NCBI GenBank assembly: GCA_017554105.1
Contig: JAFZIY010000006.1
Location: 30,795 to 94,794, forward strand
Origin: Prevotella sp.
GTDB taxonomy: Bacteria; Bacteroidota; Bacteroidia; Bacteroidales; Bacteroidaceae
Direction of reading: 5' to 3'
DNA: 64,000 nt
In this document: positions 4,852-21,347 of the stretch, in pieces
Numbering within the stretch: the first letter of the stretch is position 1
Layout: every line of letters starts with the position of its first letter
The notes under the pieces: model-generated
What the model saw: the letters and a program-made list of their open reading frames with translations, nothing else
What the model was told of the DNA's origin: nothing
Databases searched by the model: none
Translations under genes and position numbers: made by a program

Positions 4852-5753
4852 GAACAAGTTTTATCAATCAGCTTCTAGAAGAGGCAAAGACAAATAAGAA
4901 GATTTTCCTGGTTATTGGTGACTTGGGTTATCATGTTGTAGAACCATTCATGGAGGCCATCCCCGAGCGTTTCCTCAATGCTGGTATTGCAGAGCAGAAT
5001 ATGGCAGGTGTTGCTGCTGGTTTGGCAATGACGGGTTACAATGTGTATATCTATTCCATTGGTAATTTCCCCACTTTGCGTTGCCTAGAACAAATCAGAA
5101 ATGATATTGCCTATCATAAAGCCAATGTGAAAATTGTTTCTGTAGGTGCTGGCTATGCTTACGGTAGTTTGGGCGCTACCCATCAGCCCACGGAAGAGAT
5201 AGGTGCTTTGAGGGCTATTCCCAATATGATTGTAGCTACTCCTGGAGATCCAGTTGAGGCACGTGCTATTGCCAAATTCTCTGCGGAATATGATGGCCCT
5301 ATGTACATCCGTCTGGGCAAAGCTGGAGAGAAAGTGGCACATACTGAAGAATGCCTTACCGTGAATGCCGGTGACATCCTTCCTGTGATGTTGAATGATG
5401 GAAACAAGAGAGCCGTTCTGGCTTGCGGTAATATTATGGCAGCTGCAAAGGCTCAGATCGAGGAGCAGAAAATGCCGTATGATTTATACAGCGTTCCATT
5501 CGTAAAGCCTCTTAACAAAGAGCAACTGAAAGCCATTGTTGAGAAGCATCCTGAGGGATTGATTACTATTGAGGAGCATCAAGCTTCCACCGGTATGGGT
5601 TCAGCCATAGTTGAGCAGGTAAACGATATGTTTGCTGATGGAGTTTTGAAAATTTATCCTGCAATTAAGAGAGTGGCTATTCCTGATGAGTTTGCACCAG
5701 TTGTGGGAACTCAGACTTACCTAAGGGAATATGAAGGGCTGAAAATCGGATAG
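4848..5753 (+). CDS. Transketolase-like, C-terminal (pyrimidine-binding) subunit
   Basis: Second half of the split transketolase (301 residues). It has the pyrimidine-domain signature G-I-A-E-Q-N-M-A-G-V-A-A-G-L-A (about residues 44-58), whose Glu activates thiamine diphosphate, and a complete C-terminal domain with V-P-F-V-K-P-L and E-E-H motifs. It is coupled to the N-terminal subunit by an ATGA overlap, as expected for an obligate heteromer. It ends 23 bp before the epimerase gene. Together the two genes equal one transketolase/DXP-synthase-like enzyme; the donor and acceptor cannot be read from sequence. Confidence 0.85.
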   Translation: MRTSFINQLLEEAKTNKKIFLVIGDLGYHVVEPFMEAIPERFLNAGIAEQNMAGVAAGLAMTGYNVYIYSIGNFPTLRCLEQIRNDIAYHKANVKIVSVGAGYAYGSLGATHQPTEEIGALRAIPNMIVATPGDPVEARAIAKFSAEYDGPMYIRLGKAGEKVAHTEECLTVNAGDILPVMLNDGNKRAVLACGNIMAAAKAQIEEQKMPYDLYSVPFVKPLNKEQLKAIVEKHPEGLITIEEHQASTGMGSAIVEQVNDMFADGVLKIYPAIKRVAIPDEFAPVVGTQTYLREYEGLKIG

Positions 5754-10398: not shown

Positions 10399-11811
10399 AT
10401 GACACATTCTTTTGAAATACCTGTAGATAATGCAATTGTCCGATTTCATGAGCATCTTCAAACTCATGACAGAACAATTCTCTCAGCCAGATACGGTGAT
10501 GGTAAGACTTATTTTCTTCATAAATTCATGGCCGATGGAAAGGTCAAGAACAACTTTCGGTTCTTAACTATTTATCCCGTTAATTATTAGGTGGAAGAGA
10601 ATAGGGATATCTTCGAACTAATAAAATATGACTTGTTAATACAGTTGTTTGTTAAGGGAATTATGGAACCTGACATTCAACTGACTAAGGCTCAGGCTTT
10701 GGGATGGTGCCTTCAATTGAATGCTCCGTCGTTGGCAGAAGGACTCCTGCCGGTATTCTCCAATTTATGCCTTGATGCGAATTCGGCCAAAATGGCGGCT
10801 GCATTTCTGACCGGCAAGAAAACAACAGGAAAGTTCAGACAGAAAGTGAATGAACTTCAGGAATCTTTTAGAGATAGGCAGATAACGCAGTTCTTGAAGG
10901 AAATATCTAAGAACCCAACTGCCGGTCAAGATGTCATAACAGGCATTATTCAGAAAGGTATTGCCGATTATAAGCGTGAGCATAAGGATAAAGAATTAGT
11001 CCTTGTTATTGAGGATATGGACAGGATGGATCCTGCGCATCTGTTCCGAATACTCAACGTTTTTTCAGCCCATATTGACCTTAACTACCGGTTTGGGTGC
11101 GAAACAAACGAGCCATATTTTGGTGGCAAATTCGGGCTTGACAAAGTTGTGTTTGTCATGAGCTATGAGAATACAAAAAAGATATACCATCATTTCTATG
11201 GGCAGGAAACTGACTTCGAAGGGTACATAAACAAATTCTGCAGTAGCAACTATTTCCCATATTCTTTTGAAGAAGAGAAAGAGAATTACTTCTATGAGCG
11301 TATGGCTCAGAATACAAAGGTTGACCCTATGACCATCAAACTTCTTGTGAAGCCTGATTTCTTAAAACAGCATAGCGTTAGGGAGGTAGTGAATGCCATT
11401 GAGAGATTAGATGATTTTATCAAACCAATTGAGCCCTTTTATCAAGGTGAAATGCTCATCAATGTTCATCATGGAGCCTTGATGATTATTGCAATCATGA
11501 GACGGCTCGGGATGAAAAATGAAGAAATAAAGGAAAGAATCGTTAACTGTATTAATGACAATAAGACCTATAAGTTGATTTTCATCTATTTTGCTTGTTT
11601 CTTTGCTTATGTAAGTAAAAAGAGAATTTTCAACAATCGGGTTCATTATAGGAGCGCAACGCCTAGTGGCCCCAACATGTTTGAGATTACTAAAGTGGAT
11701 GACTACGGTAAGGCTGAATGCGCTTACTATAACGATGGAACAAGTCATCAAGACTATAATCAAGAATTCAAGACGTTATTGGATAAACTGCTTGGTCTAG
11801 TGTCTGCTTGA
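10399..11811 (+). pseudogene. KAP-like P-loop ATPase interrupted by an in-frame TAG
   Basis: One reading frame of 470 codons is split by a single TAG at 10588-10590. The N-terminal piece has a Walker A-like loop, S-A-R-Y-G-D-G-K-T-Y-F (about 30-40). The rest carries Walker B in V-L-V-I-E-D-M-D-R-M-D-P (about 200), typical of KAP-type NTPases, and later I-Y-F-A-C-F-F-A-Y. The context N-Y-stop-V-E-E-N-R-D suggests a former CAG (Gln). A GTG right after the stop could in principle restart translation, but that product would lack Walker A. It is coupled upstream to the deaminase unit. Without readthrough the ATPase should be inactive. Confidence 0.65.
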
Positions 11812-11846: not shown

Positions 11847-14270
11847 ATGGGGCAAAATAGTTTTAGAATCATTGCATTAAGAGTTCTTCAAGGATGTGAT
11901 GCCAAAATCAGACGAGCATTGCATGAGGAAGAAACGTATTTCCTGTATAACGACTATGAGGATGAGTTTAACGAAGATGGCCTGTGGAAAGGTATCAGGA
12001 ATACAGAAAATACAAAGGAAAAAATCGCTAGCGACTTTTTTGAAATTCCGACAAAAGGCAATAAAATAAAGAAGACACCCATCATAAGCGTATCGGCAAT
12101 TGTTGGTAAGAATGGCGACGGAAAGAGCTCATTAGTAGAGCTAATCTTGAGAATTATTAACAACTTTGGAGTAGAGAATGGTTTTAAGATAGACCAAGAG
12201 TCACTTGCTCATGTGAATGGTATAGAGGCAATTCTCTATTATGAAATTGGCGGTAAATTGTATTATATCAAGTGTACTCATGAGACGGTTGATACATCGT
12301 TCGCCCATGAGTATGTGGATAAAGATAAACTGAAACAACATGAGGAAGAGTTGTTTTACACCATCGTTGCGAACTACTCCATCTATGCTTATAACTCCCG
12401 ACACCTACAGCAAGAAGTGGAGGAAGAAGATGAGTGCTGGATAAATGGTGTGTTCCACAAGAATGACAGTTATCAGACACCGTTGGTACTGAATCCCATG
12501 CGTACACAAGGTAATTTTGACATCAATAAGGAGGAGGATTTGTGTCATCAACGGTTAATGACCATTTATAGTGATCTAGGTGACGATGAGGTGGCTCGAC
12601 GAATAAATGGGAATAAAATAGCTACGGGTTTTGCTTTCAATTTGGAGGAAAAGTCGAAACTAGAGACTGTTACCTTGAAAAAATATTTCCAGAAGACTTG
12701 GAAATCGACCAGCCTTTATAATGAGGCTGCACATTTTGAAAGGTATCTGGGTAGTCAGAATCAACCCCTAATAGAATTGGTAGAGTCAGAATTCAATGAC
12801 CAAGTGTGGTTTTGGGCTCATTATTTAGAGAAATGGGACAAATATGATTCTCTTTTCAAGTTGGCTGAAAAGGTGAATTGGGAAGTCTATAAGGAAAATA
12901 ATGCTGAAGAAGACGATGGAGTAACTGACCTAAAAAGGTATCTGAAGTCAGCTAAAAATGGTATTGAACGCTATGTCAGCAAAAGAGATGAGCAGCAGAA
13001 AGCCATTAAATCGATAAATATAGTTAATGCAAAATGTAGAAAACTGACTGGACTTCAGTTTCAACGATTGGTTCTAATCATAGATGTATGTGAACTCTGG
13101 GCGGAACATTCGTGGTTTGCGAAAGAACGGTTTTATACTGCTATAAGACAATATACAAACAATCAAGCAGGACGGAGTATAGAGAAGCGCCAAGCTTTAT
13201 TATATGTAATATACAAGACCATCAATATCTTTTCTCAATATAAACGCTTCCTAGATTTGCTGGAGGTGGATGTTCGCTATTTTTATTTGTTTGATAGGAA
13301 GAAGAAAGACGGGGTGGAGTATTATAAGAGACTGCCAGAGTGTTTTGACCTGCTGTTTACTGATAGCAAAAAAGAACATATAGAGAAGAAATACGACACG
13401 CTGAAGCTTAGACAGACCATCAACTTTATGAAGTATGGTTCTTTCAAAACCAATAATACTCAGGATCCATATACTGGAAAGGATTTTATGTATGAAAGAT
13501 ATGTCACCTTCAATCGGTTGAATGGATTTATCAGAGATGCAAAGAAAAAGTGCAATGAAGAGACTATCGCTTTGCTTCCACCACCGATATTTATAGGCGA
13601 CATACTGGTACGCGAAGGGGAAGATAAACCCGGAAATAAGCGGTATAGGATGGCAGATCTGAGTAGTGGAGAGCTTCAGATGCTCAACTCTATCAGTACC
13701 TATATCTATCATTTACGGAATCTGAACTATCATGTAGGTGCAGAGCACGCGATCGAGTATTCATATGTGAATTTGATATTAGAGGAGGTAGAACTCTATT
13801 TCCATCCTGAATATCAGAGGCAATATGTCTATCGCATGATTAAGCAGATAGAGCAGGCCAAATTGGAGAATATCGAGGGTATTAATATCATATTGGTAAC
13901 ACATTCACCATTTGTGTTGTCTGATATACCAAAGAGCAATGTGCTGTTTCTTAAAGAAGGCCTACCTGTATATGTGATGCAGGAGAATACGTTTGGGGCA
14001 AACATTCATGCTTTGTTGCAGAACGGCTTCTTTTTGGAAGGAGCACCGATGGGAGAATTTGCTAAGGAGAAGATTAATAAGATGTTTGAACGGTTACATG
14101 ATAATGAATATGGCGAAGATTTGTTTGAAGAAATAAAATTAGTAAGCGAGCCATTGCTAAAAACACAGTTGTATCAGTTGTATAGTTTGAACAAACTGCC
14201 CCATCAGGCTTCAAAGTATGAAGAGCTGGAGGCAAGAATTAAAGAATTGGAGGATCGACTAAATGGTTGA
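11847..14270 (+). CDS. ABC/OLD-type ATPase of a Septu-like defence pair
   Basis: 807-residue ATPase with Walker A in V-G-K-N-G-D-G-K-S-S (about 86-95), a long helical insertion, the ABC signature-like L-S-S-G-E-L-Q-M-L (about 605), Walker B I-L-E-E-V-E-L-Y-F-H-P (about 643) and the switch histidine in V-T-H-S-P-F-V-L-S-D (about 684). These are the marks of SMC/Rad50/OLD-like ATPases used in anti-phage systems such as Septu (PtuA) and retron-associated pairs. It overlaps the HNH nuclease gene by 8 bp. It is longer than the classic PtuA. A short coiled coil closes the C-terminus. The defence role rests on family and pairing, not on a test. Confidence 0.8.
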   Translation: MGQNSFRIIALRVLQGCDAKIRRALHEEETYFLYNDYEDEFNEDGLWKGIRNTENTKEKIASDFFEIPTKGNKIKKTPIISVSAIVGKNGDGKSSLVELILRIINNFGVENGFKIDQESLAHVNGIEAILYYEIGGKLYYIKCTHETVDTSFAHEYVDKDKLKQHEEELFYTIVANYSIYAYNSRHLQQEVEEEDECWINGVFHKNDSYQTPLVLNPMRTQGNFDINKEEDLCHQRLMTIYSDLGDDEVARRINGNKIATGFAFNLEEKSKLETVTLKKYFQKTWKSTSLYNEAAHFERYLGSQNQPLIELVESEFNDQVWFWAHYLEKWDKYDSLFKLAEKVNWEVYKENNAEEDDGVTDLKRYLKSAKNGIERYVSKRDEQQKAIKSINIVNAKCRKLTGLQFQRLVLIIDVCELWAEHSWFAKERFYTAIRQYTNNQAGRSIEKRQALLYVIYKTINIFSQYKRFLDLLEVDVRYFYLFDRKKKDGVEYYKRLPECFDLLFTDSKKEHIEKKYDTLKLRQTINFMKYGSFKTNNTQDPYTGKDFMYERYVTFNRLNGFIRDAKKKCNEETIALLPPPIFIGDILVREGEDKPGNKRYRMADLSSGELQMLNSISTYIYHLRNLNYHVGAEHAIEYSYVNLILEEVELYFHPEYQRQYVYRMIKQIEQAKLENIEGINIILVTHSPFVLSDIPKSNVLFLKEGLPVYVMQENTFGANIHALLQNGFFLEGAPMGEFAKEKINKMFERLHDNEYGEDLFEEIKLVSEPLLKTQLYQLYSLNKLPHQASKYEELEARIKELEDRLNG

Positions 14271-15195
14271 TATTAATATTCCTGAAAAACGAAGGCTGAA
14301 AATCAGCGGAGAGTATTATCAACGACTTACTTCGTGGATAGACAATAAGGGACTCTGGGATGGCTTAGGTGATGCAGATGCAAATAATATGATGCAGTAT
14401 TTCCAAAGGAATGCCCGTAAATACATACTTGCACCAGCTGAGAAATTAAAAACATATAGTGATGACTTCACCCGACAATACCGAACAATCAAAGCGAACT
14501 ATGATTCTGCATCAAAGTCAGACAAGCCGGTCACAAGTTACGGACTGTTTATTAAACGTATGCGGGAAATTTATAATGGTTTCATGAAGACGGAGTATGA
14601 AAAGGATAAGAAGTATGGGTATTGGTTGATGAAAAAGCTGGGAGTGAATGTCTGCCCTTACTGCAACAGAAACTATACTACGACCATCCAAAGTCCCGAG
14701 ATAAAAGTGAGACCGGAATATGACCATTTCTATCCGGAAGCACTGTATCCATCGTTGATATTGTCTTTTTATAATCTGGTACCTTCGTGTCCTCAGTGCA
14801 ATCATTTGAAAAAGGTTCAAGAACTTGATGTTAATCCCTGGATTGGGTATAGGGCGGGAGGAAGGCCGAAATTCCGAGTAGATACATCGAATGGTGATTT
14901 CCCGGCTCGACCAGAGATTCTGATTGATGGTGAGAATGAAAATACCAAGAAGCTTGGCGTAAAGGAGCTGTATAATGAGCATAAAGACTACGTAAAAGAT
15001 ATACTTAACAAGATCCAGGCTTATAATCCAGTAACATACGGGGCTATTAAAAGGGACTTTCAGGGTATAGCGCATACTGAGGCAGAATTGGAACGTATGG
15101 TTTGGGGTAATTATACAAGGGAGGAAGATATGAATCGGAGGCCGATGGCAAAGTTGACGGTGGATATATTGGAGCAGTATAAGAAATTTCTGTAG
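14263..15195 (+). CDS. HNH endonuclease, PtuB-like partner
   Basis: 310 residues. The zinc-bound HNH core is clear: C-P-Y-C-N-R-N-Y (Cys131, Cys134), Y-D-H-F-Y-P-E (about 153-159), then N-L-V-P-S-C-P-Q-C-N-H-L-K-K (about 171-184). This arrangement is the one found in PtuB-like nucleases that pair with ABC-type ATPases. An N-terminal helical region of about 120 residues probably docks on the ATPase. The start overlaps the ATPase stop, so the two are co-translated. Target (phage or host DNA, or tRNA) cannot be told from sequence. Confidence 0.82.
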   Translation: MVDINIPEKRRLKISGEYYQRLTSWIDNKGLWDGLGDADANNMMQYFQRNARKYILAPAEKLKTYSDDFTRQYRTIKANYDSASKSDKPVTSYGLFIKRMREIYNGFMKTEYEKDKKYGYWLMKKLGVNVCPYCNRNYTTTIQSPEIKVRPEYDHFYPEALYPSLILSFYNLVPSCPQCNHLKKVQELDVNPWIGYRAGGRPKFRVDTSNGDFPARPEILIDGENENTKKLGVKELYNEHKDYVKDILNKIQAYNPVTYGAIKRDFQGIAHTEAELERMVWGNYTREEDMNRRPMAKLTVDILEQYKKFL

Positions 15196-15273: not shown

Positions 15274-16239
15274 ATGCGAATAGAAATACTGCAAGCAGGA
15301 ACAGGAGATTGTATCTGGATTAATCACAATAAGAAGAACATTGTGATAGATGGCGGCAAGTCAAAAACTGCCATTAAAGCCAGATATGCCCAAATGCCAC
15401 AGGATGAGGAATTAGACCTGCTGGTAGTAACTCACATAGATTCTGACCATATAGCAGGGGGCATTGCATTGGTGGAAATGATGAAAGAAAAAGGTGAAAC
15501 AGCCAGGCTGAAACAGGTTTGGTTTAACTACCCGAAGAAACCTGAGTCAGACGAGTATTCTGTTCCTGAAGGTAACGAACTGTCATCTTTACTATGTAGT
15601 ATTGACGGATTGTATTGGATAAACAACACTTCAGAATTGATAGGCGGTCCCATAGAAATAGGAGGTGTAAAACTGCATTTATTAGCACCCAATCACGATG
15701 TTGCAGATGAATATAAGCCAAAAGAACCTGATGAACTGGGAGTAGAAAATGCTGATTGGGGAGTGAACCTGCAATCACTGATTGATAATGTGGATGATGA
15801 CAATTTGGATGAAGGAGGCCCTAACAGTCAATCAATAGTTATTTTGGCTGAGTGTGAAGGTAAGAAGGTGTTGCTGCCTGGAGATTGTACGCCACATGAG
15901 CTATCTAATGCACTTTGCAACTATAACAGCATAAATGGGCCACTTTTGAAACTTGACCTGATAAAACTACCACATCATGGGAGTACCCGCAATATCACAA
16001 AGGCTATTGCCACACAGATAGACTGCGCGGATTTCGTGATTTCAACCAAGTTAAACAAGAAGTATCTGTTCCCGAATAAAGAGACGATAGCCAAACTAAT
16101 CTGCTATAGAACGCAAAAGGATAGAGCCATCAATGTGTATTTCAATTATCAGGATGCGCTGGATGTTCTTGGAATAACTGAAAAAGAGAAGGCTGATAAT
16201 AACATCAAACTCACTGTTTGCCGTGAATTCAACATTTGA
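15274..16239 (+). CDS. Metallo-beta-lactamase-fold hydrolase (ComEC-like)
   Basis: 321 residues with the soluble ComEC/Rec2-like MBL signature: T-H-I-D-S-D-H-I-A-G-G (His54, Asp56, Asp58, His59), L-P-G-D-C-T-P-H (about 207) and L-P-H-H-G-S-T-R-N (about 231). No membrane segment, so it is not a DNA-uptake ComEC. It is translationally coupled to the protease-NACHT gene, which starts at a GTG inside its last codons. MBL proteins accompany proteases and STAND ATPases in type I AVAST-like systems, where they may act as nuclease or phosphodiesterase effectors. The effector role is inferred from that pairing. Confidence 0.82.
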   Translation: MRIEILQAGTGDCIWINHNKKNIVIDGGKSKTAIKARYAQMPQDEELDLLVVTHIDSDHIAGGIALVEMMKEKGETARLKQVWFNYPKKPESDEYSVPEGNELSSLLCSIDGLYWINNTSELIGGPIEIGGVKLHLLAPNHDVADEYKPKEPDELGVENADWGVNLQSLIDNVDDDNLDEGGPNSQSIVILAECEGKKVLLPGDCTPHELSNALCNYNSINGPLLKLDLIKLPHHGSTRNITKAIATQIDCADFVISTKLNKKYLFPNKETIAKLICYRTQKDRAINVYFNYQDALDVLGITEKEKADNNIKLTVCREFNI

Positions 16240-19200
16240 CATACGTCGTAATTGCGTCAGAATAAAGGCTGACATCAAAGGAAGAGGTCTTCACTTCCGA
16301 GGGACAGGTGTGATCTATCCCTTGGGAGAGGATGAGCAGTACGATTATGTCTTTACGGCTCAGCATATTCTGAAGGATGACAAGAAAAAGAAATTGAATT
16401 CTGTTCTTGACAAGATAGGGGTAATTGAAATAGAGGTCTTTGATGATGGACACTTTACGACCTATATAAGCATTGCCAAAGAAAATGTCTCTAAATCTTT
16501 ACTCCCAGTTGGCGATGATTTCCTTATCATAAGGCTTCAGAAGGGCGAGAAGCAATTTACTCCCTTTCTGCTGGCAGATGACCTTATTGAAGAAAAGCCC
16601 ATGCAACTGTATGGGATTTCTGGTGAAGCGCAAGATATAATCACCAGGCTGGATTGTAAGTGCGTAGATAGCAGGGTAGAACTGGTAAATATCACTTCGC
16701 CTGTTGATAATATGGATAGTCTGCACGGAATGTCAGGCGGTGGTATATTTGCGTTGAATCAGCCTTTGATGTATGGTGTGTTGTGGAAATATGCTGCGAC
16801 GGATGGGGAATTCCATAATGTCAAGATAACTCAGGCATTAGAAGAAAAGATAACATCGCAATTAGCCCAGCGAAGGTGGAAAGCCATTGATTTCATCAAC
16901 ATCACTCAGTGCAAGCTGGCTATGAGCGGCGTGTATGATGGCATATTCCGGGATATTAATGACACAATTCTGGTCAATCGGAATAATTCCAGATTTCCAC
17001 TTGAATCCAGGTTCGTTATGCCCGACTTTGTAGATGTGGTGCAAAACATGGCTTCTGGTGATTCTGTTGAGCTGGATGTGAAACCTGTGGAGATAGACCC
17101 TACGAACATTTATCTCAAAGGCGGAGAAATTCAAGAATACAGTGAGCAGTACCTTAAAGAATTCTATAGCCATCTGAACAAGACCAGCAATAGAGAGGTC
17201 AGGATACCAGCATCATCTATATTGAATTCCGATAGAAGTATATTGCTCATAGTGGGAGGACCTGGTTATGGCAAGTCTTCGCTGTTGAAATACCTTACGC
17301 TACAATTGCTGAAGGGTAAGATGGATGCGTATGACGGCTATCTGCCCGTATGGATGCCATTTTCATATATGGCTAGGAATTGCGATAGCGATATTAAAAA
17401 CATCATTCAGACGTGGTTACAGGAGAGCAAGTTGTGGGAAAAGAACAGCCATTATCTGGAGTATGCCTTTGAACAGAAAAAAATATTGTTGATTGCTGAT
17501 GGTATTGACGAATGGGGTGATGAACCTTTGCAGGCAGACAAGGTTATACGTAAGGTGAAGGCTGAAACTGAGGAAGGCAATCTGTTAGCCATTTTCTCAA
17601 GCAGGGAATATGGCATTGCGAATATCAATTCTCCATTCAGCAGTGGCGATACATACACAATAGCTCCGCTGTCAGCATTGCAGCAGGATGAACTGGTGAA
17701 GAAATGTGTGGATCATTATAATGGGCTGATTCATGACACGAAGAGAACAGCTGAGTTCCTTTCAGCAAAGTTGAGACTTCTGCATGATGTTGACCGCATG
17801 AAAGATAACCCTATGCTGCTAACAATTCTCATAGGTCAGTATCTGCAGGGTAACGAACTACCTCACAACAACATAGCGGCTATGGACTGTATTGTAGAAC
17901 AGTTGTTTGTGAAGCATCAGCAGTCACGTAAATATCAGGCTTTCGACTATTCAGGCTCGTTTGACTTCACAAGCAATAAGATAATGCTGGGTGTGCTGTC
18001 AAAAGAAATGTTCGACTACTACAATGATGGCAGCATGGACAAGACTCAGGCTGAGATTCTGCTGAACCAATACCTGAATAGTCAGACATCGGGGCAGGAA
18101 CTGAATAATGCGCACATCGTTGACAATTTGTTCAGGCATGATACACACCAGTTGGGTGTTATTGAAGAAAGAACAGGCTCGCGTATTTCCTTTATCAATA
18201 GACAACTGCAAGAGTTTATGACGGCCAAATACCTGTCGGTAGACGAAGACAGAGCCAGAAGTTTTGTCCTACAGAATGCCCCAGATGGAGGCCTTCATCA
18301 GGTTGTACTCTTCCTTTTCGAAATGATGCCGGCCTCAGTGTTTGTAAGACTGTACAGTGATTTGAAGCCCCTCGTTACCGACGATTACAGAAACTATTAC
18401 CTCTATAAACTGAAACTGGAAGTTCTGGTAAGGTCGGTGAAGGCACCCAAGCCATTTTTGCTTAAAGAAATAGAGCATTATATACAAAGGATAGAACGGG
18501 AGTCTGACTATGATATCAAACATGACCTATTGGAGATTCTGTTGGATGGTTTGTACAACTCTGCCTTACGCGAGCGTATAGAAGATTTTCTCTCACGATA
18601 CATACCTTCTGCTTCTGTGTATCATGATATCCGGTTGTCGGGATTGGCACAAGTGACAGACCTTACCGCAGAGGAGAGGATGTTTGCTGTGCTAACCGTT
18701 GTCAATGGTGATGTGAACAACAAGATTCTCGCGTCACAAGTAATAAGGAAACATATCACCACAGACGAAAAACTGCTGGAGATGGTTAATTCATATATAC
18801 GATCATCGACGATGCCCGAGGTGGTGGCTTTCTTTATCAGGAGCGTCATAGTTGACGGGCTTGATATAGAGAATGAAAATAAGTTTATAGAGGAGGTTGT
18901 GTCGGGAGACCTCTATACAAGGTTCTATAAGTTAGAATTTTCTTTATTTAAGGGTGAGAATGTTCCCGCTGATGAAATCTTTGAGCTAGTTTCAGAACTG
19001 CCATTCTCAATCCAAGAGGATGCTTCCAGATTATTGCAGACCTATTTTGTACAAGATGAGGACATCAGGCAAAAGGCTTTGAAGTCAGTAAAGGCCAAGT
19101 TCAGAAGACGTGGGAATATTGGTAGAGATATGGCTTGGCGATACCTGCTGTCATGTTGGATAAATCATCCTGAAGTTATTCAGGCTATTGCTGATGAACT

Positions 19201-21106
19201 GAAAGAGTCGTACCCGTTCACTCATGGTAATGGCCATGAGCTGTGGCAAATCATAGAGAGGCAAGAAATATCACCTGAACTGCGTCAAGTCATAACCGAG
19301 TGGGCTATAGACAGGGATATTAAACATGTGATGTGGGGTGTCGAATCATCTATAGTCAATACAATTGCAAACGACCCTCGTATCAAGGTCAAACTTCTTG
19401 AAGCATTAGAAGAAATGGATAGCTTCCAGCATATAGTGGCCTTCCCTCTTATTAAAAACTGGGGGCAGGATGTAGAAGTTGTTGCAAGACTGCAACGGTA
19501 CCTTGATGAAGAGCCGCTAAAAAAATCCATGTGGATAGCATGTTATGCTTATGAGATTTATCAAGGTAATGAAGAACGAATCAAGGCATACCTTGATAGA
19601 TGTATCAATGAACCAGACGAGGGATTGATGAAAGACCGTGCCGTATCGGTCTATGTAAGTCATTACAAAGAAGAGTTTGCAGAGAAATACATATCTCGAA
19701 TCCTCAATGGAGAAATCTTAATGGGCGACCGCATCCTCGGTTCGAAATGGGGCATACTGGAAGTCATCATTGAGAATTATTCAGAGCGTAAGGACGTACA
19801 AGAGTTCCTACAGAAATATTATTCTGATGATTATAGGTTTGCAGGTCAGATTATAGTTAAATATCGCGGAACGGAGTTGGCATCGAGAATGCTCAGTAAG
19901 TGGTATCACATGGATACACGACTGAGGTTGATGATGATACACAAGATTTCAAATTTGTCAGGTATTGATGAACGTATAGAGGGGATGCTTCACTCATTCA
20001 GAATAGAGGGTAATGCGTACGTTCTGTGTGATACGGTCTTGTGTCTGGTAGGCCATTTGAAGAGAATGGGCAGGGATAATGACGTGTTCAAGATTGCAGA
20101 CGAGGTGTTTAATACGTCTCAGGTGACGACGGAATATACCTATAAAATGCGACTCTGCATCAATCTACTGTATCATAAGATTGATGAATACGTTCAGTTG
20201 AATTTGCCTACCGGCGGTAAGGAATACGAATTTGCGCAGATGCATCTTTTCTATAACGACAGCCCGTATATCGAGAAAACTATAGCAGATGAGGCAGATT
20301 ATCTGTTGGTTGATGATATGGCAAATCTGAGGAAGTTAGTCAATAGCGACGATCGTATATATTCATACATTGTTTTCTTCTCGAAATTTGTTAATCCAAC
20401 ATCTAAAGCGGCACAAGTCATCGTTAACTATCTAAATGAGAAAAAGGATAAGATTGATGATGCTAATATCCTTCTGTTCTTGAAGAAAGTGGGCAACCAA
20501 AAACAGTTGTTGAAAGAATTGGTTATGGCCAATATCAATAATGAGAATAATGAGATGTCTGCAACAGTGGAGCAAATCATTTCGACTGATTTTGAAAAGG
20601 ATGAGGATATTAAGACATTATTGAAACTGGAAAAGTGGAATTGGTTTGATGATTCTATAAACAGGGTTTCAATTAATTGCACATTGAATAGTAATGTTGA
20701 GATGCTAAAAGAAATATTTGGTGATTACAAGGAAAAGAAGTTTGAATTGAATAGTAGTTACGCTTCTTATAATTTCATTTTCTCAATGGTAGAAGACAAC
20801 AAGGTGATTGAGTACTTGAAATACTATCTGACTGAACTTCAGGATACTTTTGTCTATCGTATGATTGTAGGTCCATTGACAGCAAGGTTGAAACGAGACA
20901 AGGCAACCGCAGATAGACTCTATGAAGAGCTGTTAGTGACATATGATCCAAGAATCAGGGTTGGCTTCTATTCTATTCTTTCTTCTGCGGGAGTGAAATC
21001 TGCAGAACTTAGAGATTGGAGAGAGCATCAGCACCAGCATCTTGATGAATATGGTCATGATATGGTGTCGAATAGAGATAGACAATTAATAGTGTCTTTG
21101 CAATAA
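16223..21106 (+). CDS. Trypsin-like protease fused to a NACHT/STAND NTPase with helical repeats
   Basis: 1,627-residue multidomain protein. Residues 1-210 form a trypsin-like domain: His48 in V-F-T-A-Q-H-I-L, a probable Asp near 99 (D-D-F-L-I-I-R-L) and Ser171 in L-H-G-M-S-G-G-G-I-F. A NACHT-type NTPase follows with Walker A G-G-P-G-Y-G-K-S-S (about 345-353) and Walker B L-L-I-A-D-G-I-D-E-W (about 422-431). From about residue 640 to the end lie HEAT/armadillo-like helices, the usual ligand-sensing region of STAND proteins. The GTG start overlaps the MBL stop by 17 bp. A plausible model is sensing of a phage protein, oligomerisation, and protease or MBL activation. This is family-based inference. 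Confidence 0.82.
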   Translation: MNSTFDIRRNCVRIKADIKGRGLHFRGTGVIYPLGEDEQYDYVFTAQHILKDDKKKKLNSVLDKIGVIEIEVFDDGHFTTYISIAKENVSKSLLPVGDDFLIIRLQKGEKQFTPFLLADDLIEEKPMQLYGISGEAQDIITRLDCKCVDSRVELVNITSPVDNMDSLHGMSGGGIFALNQPLMYGVLWKYAATDGEFHNVKITQALEEKITSQLAQRRWKAIDFINITQCKLAMSGVYDGIFRDINDTILVNRNNSRFPLESRFVMPDFVDVVQNMASGDSVELDVKPVEIDPTNIYLKGGEIQEYSEQYLKEFYSHLNKTSNREVRIPASSILNSDRSILLIVGGPGYGKSSLLKYLTLQLLKGKMDAYDGYLPVWMPFSYMARNCDSDIKNIIQTWLQESKLWEKNSHYLEYAFEQKKILLIADGIDEWGDEPLQADKVIRKVKAETEEGNLLAIFSSREYGIANINSPFSSGDTYTIAPLSALQQDELVKKCVDHYNGLIHDTKRTAEFLSAKLRLLHDVDRMKDNPMLLTILIGQYLQGNELPHNNIAAMDCIVEQLFVKHQQSRKYQAFDYSGSFDFTSNKIMLGVLSKEMFDYYNDGSMDKTQAEILLNQYLNSQTSGQELNNAHIVDNLFRHDTHQLGVIEERTGSRISFINRQLQEFMTAKYLSVDEDRARSFVLQNAPDGGLHQVVLFLFEMMPASVFVRLYSDLKPLVTDDYRNYYLYKLKLEVLVRSVKAPKPFLLKEIEHYIQRIERESDYDIKHDLLEILLDGLYNSALRERIEDFLSRYIPSASVYHDIRLSGLAQVTDLTAEERMFAVLTVVNGDVNNKILASQVIRKHITTDEKLLEMVNSYIRSSTMPEVVAFFIRSVIVDGLDIENENKFIEEVVSGDLYTRFYKLEFSLFKGENVPADEIFELVSELPFSIQEDASRLLQTYFVQDEDIRQKALKSVKAKFRRRGNIGRDMAWRYLLSCWINHPEVIQAIADELKESYPFTHGNGHELWQIIERQEISPELRQVITEWAIDRDIKHVMWGVESSIVNTIANDPRIKVKLLEALEEMDSFQHIVAFPLIKNWGQDVEVVARLQRYLDEEPLKKSMWIACYAYEIYQGNEERIKAYLDRCINEPDEGLMKDRAVSVYVSHYKEEFAEKYISRILNGEILMGDRILGSKWGILEVIIENYSERKDVQEFLQKYYSDDYRFAGQIIVKYRGTELASRMLSKWYHMDTRLRLMMIHKISNLSGIDERIEGMLHSFRIEGNAYVLCDTVLCLVGHLKRMGRDNDVFKIADEVFNTSQVTTEYTYKMRLCINLLYHKIDEYVQLNLPTGGKEYEFAQMHLFYNDSPYIEKTIADEADYLLVDDMANLRKLVNSDDRIYSYIVFFSKFVNPTSKAAQVIVNYLNEKKDKIDDANILLFLKKVGNQKQLLKELVMANINNENNEMSATVEQIISTDFEKDEDIKTLLKLEKWNWFDDSINRVSINCTLNSNVEMLKEIFGDYKEKKFELNSSYASYNFIFSMVEDNKVIEYLKYYLTELQDTFVYRMIVGPLTARLKRDKATADRLYEELLVTYDPRIRVGFYSILSSAGVKSAELRDWREHQHQHLDEYGHDMVSNRDRQLIVSLQ

Positions 21107-21116
21107 TAATGGTCAT

Positions 21117-21347
21117 ATGACGCAAGATGAACGGTGGTTGGTGAGGTATCAGGAGGTGATGGGTTTCCTAGAGGAGAATCATAGAAATCCGTCGAAGCAT
21201 AGGATCGAGGAACATGACCATCTGAATTGGCTCAAGGCAAATAGAAAGGCGATGAATGCGGGGAAGATGAAAGATGAGAGAGTGGAGAAGTTTGGAAAAC
21301 TTCTGGAATTGACGGAACAGTATAGGAGGAAGAATCAGTATGAATAG
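21117..21347 (+). CDS. Helicase-associated-domain (HA) small protein
   Basis: 76 residues: W-L-V-R-Y-Q-E-V-M-G-F-L-E-E-N-H-R-N-P-S, then L-N-W-L-K-A-N-R-K-A-M-N-A-G and M-K-D-E-R-V-E-K-F. This W-x-x-R-Y/F-x-E-V/L pattern with a central W-L-K-x-N-R-K is the small three-helix helicase-associated domain, common in Bacteroidales as a free-standing protein and thought to bind nucleic acid. It starts 10 bp after the STAND gene. It may be a component of that system or an unrelated remnant of a larger helicase. Confidence 0.6.
   Translation: MTQDERWLVRYQEVMGFLEENHRNPSKHRIEEHDHLNWLKANRKAMNAGKMKDERVEKFGKLLELTEQYRRKNQYE

Follow-up and report, generated by a model that had tools for sequence, protein, structure and literature searches.

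According to the available text of Tuck et al. 2025 (PMC12799240), proteins of the metallo-beta-lactamase (MBL) fold serve in Hachiman and AVAST systems as gated pro-nucleases that are opened by a trypsin partner. In these pairs the MBL gene lies upstream and the trypsin domain forms the N-terminus of the sensor-side protein; pairs are also reported from Lamassu and DRT systems, with the protease always fused to another defence enzyme, and HamM, when assayed, cut DNA and not RNA. The stretch of DNA considered here (the window) comprises 64,000 nucleotides of Prevotella sp. (assembly GCA_017554105.1, contig JAFZIY010000006.1, 30,795–94,794, forward strand), and carries two overlapping genes, one for an MBL-fold protein (P0001) and the next for a large protein that joins a trypsin-fold protease, a NACHT domain and helical repeats (P0002). 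Most likely, the pair represents a gated pro-nuclease and its trypsin, of the type just described, joined to a NACHT protein that matches no Avs profile. P0002 fits the published order, having its trypsin domain at the N-terminus and the MBL gene directly upstream. It also has the layout of bNACHT proteins, with an N-terminal effector, a central NACHT domain and a C-terminal region that is presumed to have a sensing role.

AVAST type I is alike in that an MBL gene is followed by one large trypsin-STAND protein. The comparison uses one annotated avs1 locus, on a Priestia plasmid (L016), where avs1a (the MBL) is accompanied by a single 1,939-aa 'serine protease' and by avs1c. The 1,939-aa protein matches Avs1b over residues 7–1928 (1118.6 bits), with Trypsin_2 at 19–154 above the cut-off and AAA at about 222–347 below it. 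The first-pass annotation of the window had assumed that protease and STAND are separate proteins in AVAST type I, which L016 contradicts, and had taken the fusion as the distinguishing feature. Since a single chain of L016 already unites trypsin and STAND NTPase, the fusion does not distinguish the window locus and was rejected as a mark of novelty. The distinct element appears, from profile comparisons, to be the NACHT/repeat sensor. P0001 reaches 127.5 bits against the NCBIfam model of Avs1a (NF041809), for which the cut-off is 420, and stands apart from L016 in the MBL tree; P0002 matches neither Avs1b nor any other Avs profile of PADLOC at E 1e-3, while other large partners of related MBLs matched Avs1b, Avs2 and Avs4 strongly. 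No avs1c-like gene follows P0002 (the 76-aa open reading frame, ORF, found at that place gives E 15 in BLASTP against Avs1c of L016). Membership in AVAST type I was rejected on these points.

The profiles of the DRT UG9 system with RTasMBL (L041) are the best PADLOC matches for both P0001 and the window trypsin, and this system likewise combines an MBL with an N-terminal trypsin fusion. However, its trypsin forms one protein with a reverse transcriptase, which Pfam at E 0.1 does not find in P0002, and the two MBLs do not group as sisters in the tree. Lamassu/ABC-3C systems with protease-LmuA (L011 and others) and Hachiman HamMAB share the MBL pro-nuclease and the trypsin fusion, but distribute sensing over further genes (SMC-like ATPase, helicase), whereas the window has NACHT within the protease chain. 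Trypsin-Avs4 and trypsin-Avs2 proteins with an MBL (L010, L020, L076) are again trypsin-STAND fusions, of 1,483–1,657 aa; in L010 the genes overlap by 23 bp and the protein passes Pfam NACHT. In contrast to the window, their C-terminal parts are recognised by profiles of Avs4 or Avs2 (Avs4 at 2e-186 for L010), and L010 aligns with the window NACHT-repeat alignment (A5) over a short P-loop stretch only, with a probability of 3.6%. Finally, bNACHT25, as given in the accessible part of PMC12169576, shares the order of N-terminal effector, central NACHT and C-terminal sensor, but has its own nuclease, where the window has an N-terminal protease and the predicted nuclease as a second gene.

That STAND-based conflict systems can contain trypsin domains is known in general, as can be seen from the available parts of Kaur 2020 (PMC7159879), Kaur 2021 (PMC8195603) and the CARD-NLR (PMC13236601), bNACHT25 (PMC12169576), Avs5 (PMC12931631) and DGR (PMC10907252) papers. 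A literature search of partial coverage found no description of an MBL with a trypsin-NACHT protein of this kind, which is not a claim of absence from print; the accessible main text of PMC12799240 does not contain the word NACHT. The parts are known, while their combination with a NACHT/repeat sensor and with a Tyr at the first gate (see below) is new to the evidence reached.

Domains and conservation of the two proteins

P0001 matches Lactamase_B of Pfam (E 1.9e-9) and, in PADLOC, RTasMBL (1.3e-80), an LmuA-labelled MBL (1.4e-58) and Avs1a (5e-27). When the MBL family alignment is searched against the PDB, ComEC MBL domains are the best profile matches, with three ComEC entries ranked first. 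Foldseek with the P0001 model places Pce at rank 1 and the ComEC MBL domain at rank 2 (E 1.2e-10), with RNase J, CPSF73 and Apyc1 among the further matches; a search of viral structures gave five matches at E ≤1e-3, four of them nameless. Residues H54, D56, D58, H59, D204 and H235 are identical in 40/40 aligned trypsin-associated MBLs. The model is of high confidence (mean predicted local distance difference test score, pLDDT, 92.8; predicted template modelling score 0.92), and its four lowest ten-residue blocks, 81–90 (86), 91–100 (79), 141–150 (70) and 151–160 (59), all fall in the gate regions, the next-lowest being 181–190 (87). Between the stretches aligned with ComEC, P0001 has 95 residues (69–163) against 48 in 9ic4 (82–129), by a hand count. 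Compared with the competence nuclease ComEC, the P0001 model appears to have the two flexible insertions that are a feature of the pairs of Tuck et al.

The domain calls of the first-pass annotation were right, with Lactamase_B and NACHT found by Pfam and trypsin by the RT_UG9_large profile of PADLOC. This profile matches residues 7–229 of P0002 (E 1.4e-33) and is its sole PADLOC match at E 1e-3; in Pfam, the trypsin part alone stays below the cut-off (Trypsin_2, E 0.044). The protease triad, already described as intact-looking, is H48, D99 and S171, invariant in 28/28 aligned rows. A model of residues 1–1200 has a mean pLDDT of 64.6, and within the trypsin domain the block values are 79–95 over 11–150 and 56–94 over 151–230. 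The best Foldseek matches of this domain are DegP/HtrA proteases. NACHT scores 32.7 bits in Pfam (cut-off 26.7). Helical hairpins are modelled from about residue 680 to 1200, where the model ends; residues 690–1627 match no Pfam family above cut-off, and P0002 has no match in the PDB by sequence.

Among the matches listed, the closest is a locus of Bacteroidales bacterium KA00344 (L028), where the MBL likewise has 321 aa, the large protein 1,627 aa and the overlap 17 bp. Because it repeats both sizes and the overlap, the two-gene arrangement is more than chance; its large gene has ATG at the aligned position, which supports the GTG start of P0002. The MBLs are 71.0% identical (228/321), the large proteins 76.3% (1242/1627), and the NACHT parts (331–690) 84.2%. 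In blastn, window positions 5001–30000 give a single block with L028, at 15274–21109 (74.5% over 5,853 columns). The flanks are therefore unrelated and the common unit is exactly the two genes. Nei-Gojobori (NG86) ratios of nonsynonymous to synonymous divergence (dN/dS) are 0.069 for the MBL gene and 0.057 for the large gene, although dS is saturated (2.8 and 2.5) and the ratios are rough. In PADLOC the KA00344 large protein matches RT_UG9_large, and mad8 weakly (7.6e-4).

The unit is rare. In 398 genomes of the genus of the window, P0001 at E 1e-10 matched in six, and a close MBL occurs in two, the window genome and G1062, which is the genome of L028 (the first 3,100 contig bases are identical). 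The MBLs of the other four are 27–33% identical to P0001, one match being partial. Searched at E 1e-10 in 395 genomes of the phylum, the sensor part of P0002 was found in its own genome only and in none of the 394 others; the same holds for its trypsin part among 393 genomes of the order and for P0002 among 100 relatives. Neither P0001 nor P0002 found a relative when viral contigs were scanned with each protein singly, and phages searched with P0002 gave no match. On plasmids, five records match part of P0002 (336–671 or 373–492) at 22–28% identity.

MBL relatives and the trypsin module

Genome contigs were scanned with the MBL alignment (A2), and the best 80 of at least 482 relatives were kept. 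A trypsin ORF, recognised by a trypsin hidden Markov model, lies directly 3' of the MBL in 28/80 of these loci and in 42 of the 108 loci overall. On plasmids, 56 records have a P0001 relative, from which 12 regions (L016–L027) were taken; seven have a trypsin partner and five have none. Four annotated plasmid loci (L021, L022, L023, L027) have caspase partners beside MBLs that lack a trypsin.

The trypsin behaves as a module that occurs with many sensors. Among its fusion partners are Avs1b (L016), Avs2 (L076), Avs4 (L010, L020), a reverse transcriptase (L041) and LmuA-type proteins, as well as proteins without a known family (L040, L071). All partners above 600 aa were profiled (12 loci, L028 included), and the NACHT-repeat part of the window protein is shared by L028 alone. 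In three loci, L018 (7968–13125), L068 (9986–15048) and L082 (9989–15125), all on the + strand, the trypsin that follows the MBL is joined to a protein of TPR-GreAB-C-PIN type; the accessible text of PMC12799240 does not name this combination. On a viral contig of IMG/VR (L113, 7784–12770, +) the trypsin is fused to a protein weakly resembling PD-Lambda-4_A. Four loci come from the genomes of the window's genus whose MBLs are 27–33% identical to P0001. In two of them, L126 (6948–11103) and L127 (5965–10087; −), the MBL is accompanied by a trypsin fusion of about 1,030 aa without other notable Pfam domain, perhaps another uncharacterised sensor on the nuclease-protease cascade. In L128 the partner is a trypsin-ABC-3C protein and the neighbours are Lamassu-like, and in L129 (4139–5247, −) the MBL relative is split over two ORFs of 231 and 132 aa.

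The MBL tree has 52 rows, is rooted at the midpoint only, and includes 12 of the 58 MBLs without a trypsin partner. Three loci (L052, L055, L095) were omitted from the alignment of 40 MBLs and from both trees, their partner ORF being short or cut. Window and L028 group at 100/100, and next to them are L030 (Fusobacteriaceae, 99/85) and L040 (Lachnospiraceae, 99/89). All four belong to a side of 39 rows (100/98), in which every row except L012 has a trypsin partner. Avs1a of L016 is on the opposite side, together with L114 and 11 MBLs without trypsin partner. Labels of 'Lmu' on the trees reflect partner length and neighbours, with profile or annotation backing for some only (L011, L017, L024, L025); L114, so labelled, groups with Avs1b.

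A proposed cascade and its alternatives

An antiviral role of STAND type, as first suggested, probably remains the best reading of the two genes. By analogy with the characterised relatives, we consider it likely that they form a single anti-phage cascade, from NACHT sensor to trypsin protease to gated MBL nuclease. In such a two-gene system, which would probably be abortive, the C-terminal helical repeats would sense a signal of infection and the NACHT domain would oligomerise, dependent on ATP. Oligomerised NACHT would switch on the N-terminal trypsin-fold protease, which would cut two gating loops of the separate MBL protein, with the cuts predicted behind Tyr95 and near Leu166. Once open, the MBL nuclease may degrade DNA, so that phage and host are both stopped.

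Loops are present at both gate positions of P0001. The predicted cut sites were mapped through Avs1a of the Priestia plasmid, using I143 and I246, which are 103 residues apart; the published sites of EpiAvs1a, in the available text of PMC12799240, are I134 and I234, 100 apart. While Ile is the published conserved residue at both sites, P0001 has Tyr95 and Leu166, the pairing at gate 2 depending on the alignment. Over the 40 MBLs, gate 1 is I in 15, T in 12, M in 5, V in 4, Y in 2 (the window and L028 only), K in 1 and H in 1, and gate 2, in the 40-MBL alignment, is L in 19, I in 15, V and F in 2 each, and M and Y in 1 each. Since Leu is the commonest residue at gate 2, only Tyr95 is unusual. 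Tyr95 lies within the first low-confidence loop of the model.

Several observations weigh against the cascade or its details. The NACHT region is poorly modelled, with pLDDT below 50 over 240–356, 461–500 and most of 502–591. Related MBLs often lack a trypsin partner, with no trypsin ORF beside them in 52/80 loci and in 3/6 genomes (L012–L014), and in the trypsin tree window and L028 (100/100) sit on a long branch with no resolved kin. With Tyr at the P1 position of gate 1 in 2/40 MBLs, cleavage after Tyr95 is a guess. Leu166 opens a predicted helix (166–171) and belongs to a block with pLDDT 96; its placement outside the flexible stretch, just after the second loop and at a confident helix start, weakens it as the exact cut site. 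One alignment (A1) pairs Leu166 with I246 of Priestia Avs1a, but the 40-MBL alignment pairs it with a Met of that protein. Six residues ahead of Ser171 is an Asp, which at that position favours Lys or Arg in textbook trypsin. Asp or Glu is found there in 23/39 of these proteases, and prediction of specificity from this residue was dropped, as it varies (D, E, Y, S, T, P, L, V, K, G, M). Only two members are known, too few for a joint change of protease and cut site to be assessed.

The first-pass annotation had proposed two effectors under one sensor, with protease and MBL each acting against the cell on its own. Two intact-looking active sites agree with this, but loops are kept at both gate positions, and one cascade is favoured over two effectors because the protease of related pairs opens the MBL pro-nuclease (available text of PMC12799240); parallel effectors are accordingly unlikely. 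It is also rather improbable that the same cascade releases an MBL acting on a target other than DNA, such as RNA, a nucleotide or a phosphodiester signal. The MBL fold does serve RNA and small-molecule substrates, and the structural matches to RNase J, CPSF73, Apyc1 and first-ranked Pce fit such a target, but ComEC heads the profile search with three entries, and HamM cut DNA and not RNA (PMC12799240, available text). A domestic or regulatory protease-MBL pair, without a function in defence, is very unlikely: although two carriers only are known and a defence function is argued from relatives, a close MBL is present in 2/398 genomes of the genus, the flanks of the carriers are unrelated, and candidate defence and phage-type genes are neighbours. 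An ordinary AVAST type I (Avs1) system, to which the order of MBL then protease-NTPase and the weak Avs1a matches could point, is the least probable of all, given the missed cut-off, the lack of an Avs match to P0002 and of an avs1c-like gene, and the separate position of the MBL.

On the preferred single cascade, it is possible, though doubtful, that a separate family of NACHT sensors, with repeats unlike those of Avs proteins, has captured and re-tuned the nuclease/trypsin pair. Tyr would then replace the Ile, Thr, Met or Val of gate 1, giving an orthogonal protease-substrate pair of the same gating design. With Tyr at gate 1 in both known members, the family offers a test case for joint change of protease and cut site. 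If the cascade is real, the sensors that drive gated nucleases would extend to a NACHT protein outside AVAST. Animal NLRs (nucleotide-binding, leucine-rich repeat receptors) activate proteases, and the window system would be a closer parallel to them than a NACHT protein with its own nuclease.

Coordinates and genomic surroundings

The two ORFs, their coordinates, the GTG start and the 17-bp overlap, all given at first pass, were confirmed by the ORF check (Table 1).

Table 1. Features of the two-gene unit, in window positions.
Feature	Position	Strand	Basis
MBL-fold predicted pro-nuclease P0001, 321 aa, ATG start	15274..16239	+	ORF, Pfam, PADLOC
Trypsin-NACHT-helical repeat protein P0002, 1,627 aa, GTG start	16223..21106	+	ORF, PADLOC, Pfam, model
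17-bp overlap of the P0001 and P0002 reading frames	16223..16239	+	equal length in L028
Trypsin-fold protease domain, residues ~4–235; H48, D99, S171	16232..16927	+	profile, alignment, model, Foldseek
NACHT domain, Pfam residues 340–495; P-loop GGPGYGKS at 345–352	17240..17707	+	Pfam
Helical-repeat region, residues ~680–1627, presumed sensor	18260..21103	+	helical hairpins in model to residue 1200
Predicted gate-1 cut site Tyr95/Ser96	15556..15561	+	aligned with Priestia Avs1a I143 and the Ile of other trypsin-associated MBLs (inference)
Predicted gate-2 cut site Leu166/Gln167	15769..15774	+	aligned with Priestia Avs1a I246 in A1 (inference)

Upstream of the unit is a pair of genes for an ATPase (11847–14270, +) and an HNH protein (14263–15195, +), whose PADLOC matches are the candidate defence families PDC-M62A (1.2e-48) and PDC-M62B (1.5e-56); kinship to PtuA/PtuB of Septu is weaker. 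The presence of this pair is counted as support for the defence reading of P0001 and P0002. Beside it is a 406-aa ORF (10591–11811, +) for which neither Pfam at E 0.01 nor PADLOC at E 1e-3 gives a match.

The 76-aa ORF downstream (21117–21347, +) begins ten bases past the large gene. No counterpart was found after the L028 unit, and a conserved third gene was rejected. Phage-type genes occupy 21688–59283, and include a repressor, DnaD-like and DnaC-like loaders, an anti-restriction protein and a 3,138-aa DarB-like antirestriction protein; the terminase match among them is weak and covers 44 residues. The G+C fraction is 0.50 at 22.8–60 kb, compared with 0.41 for the two-gene unit.

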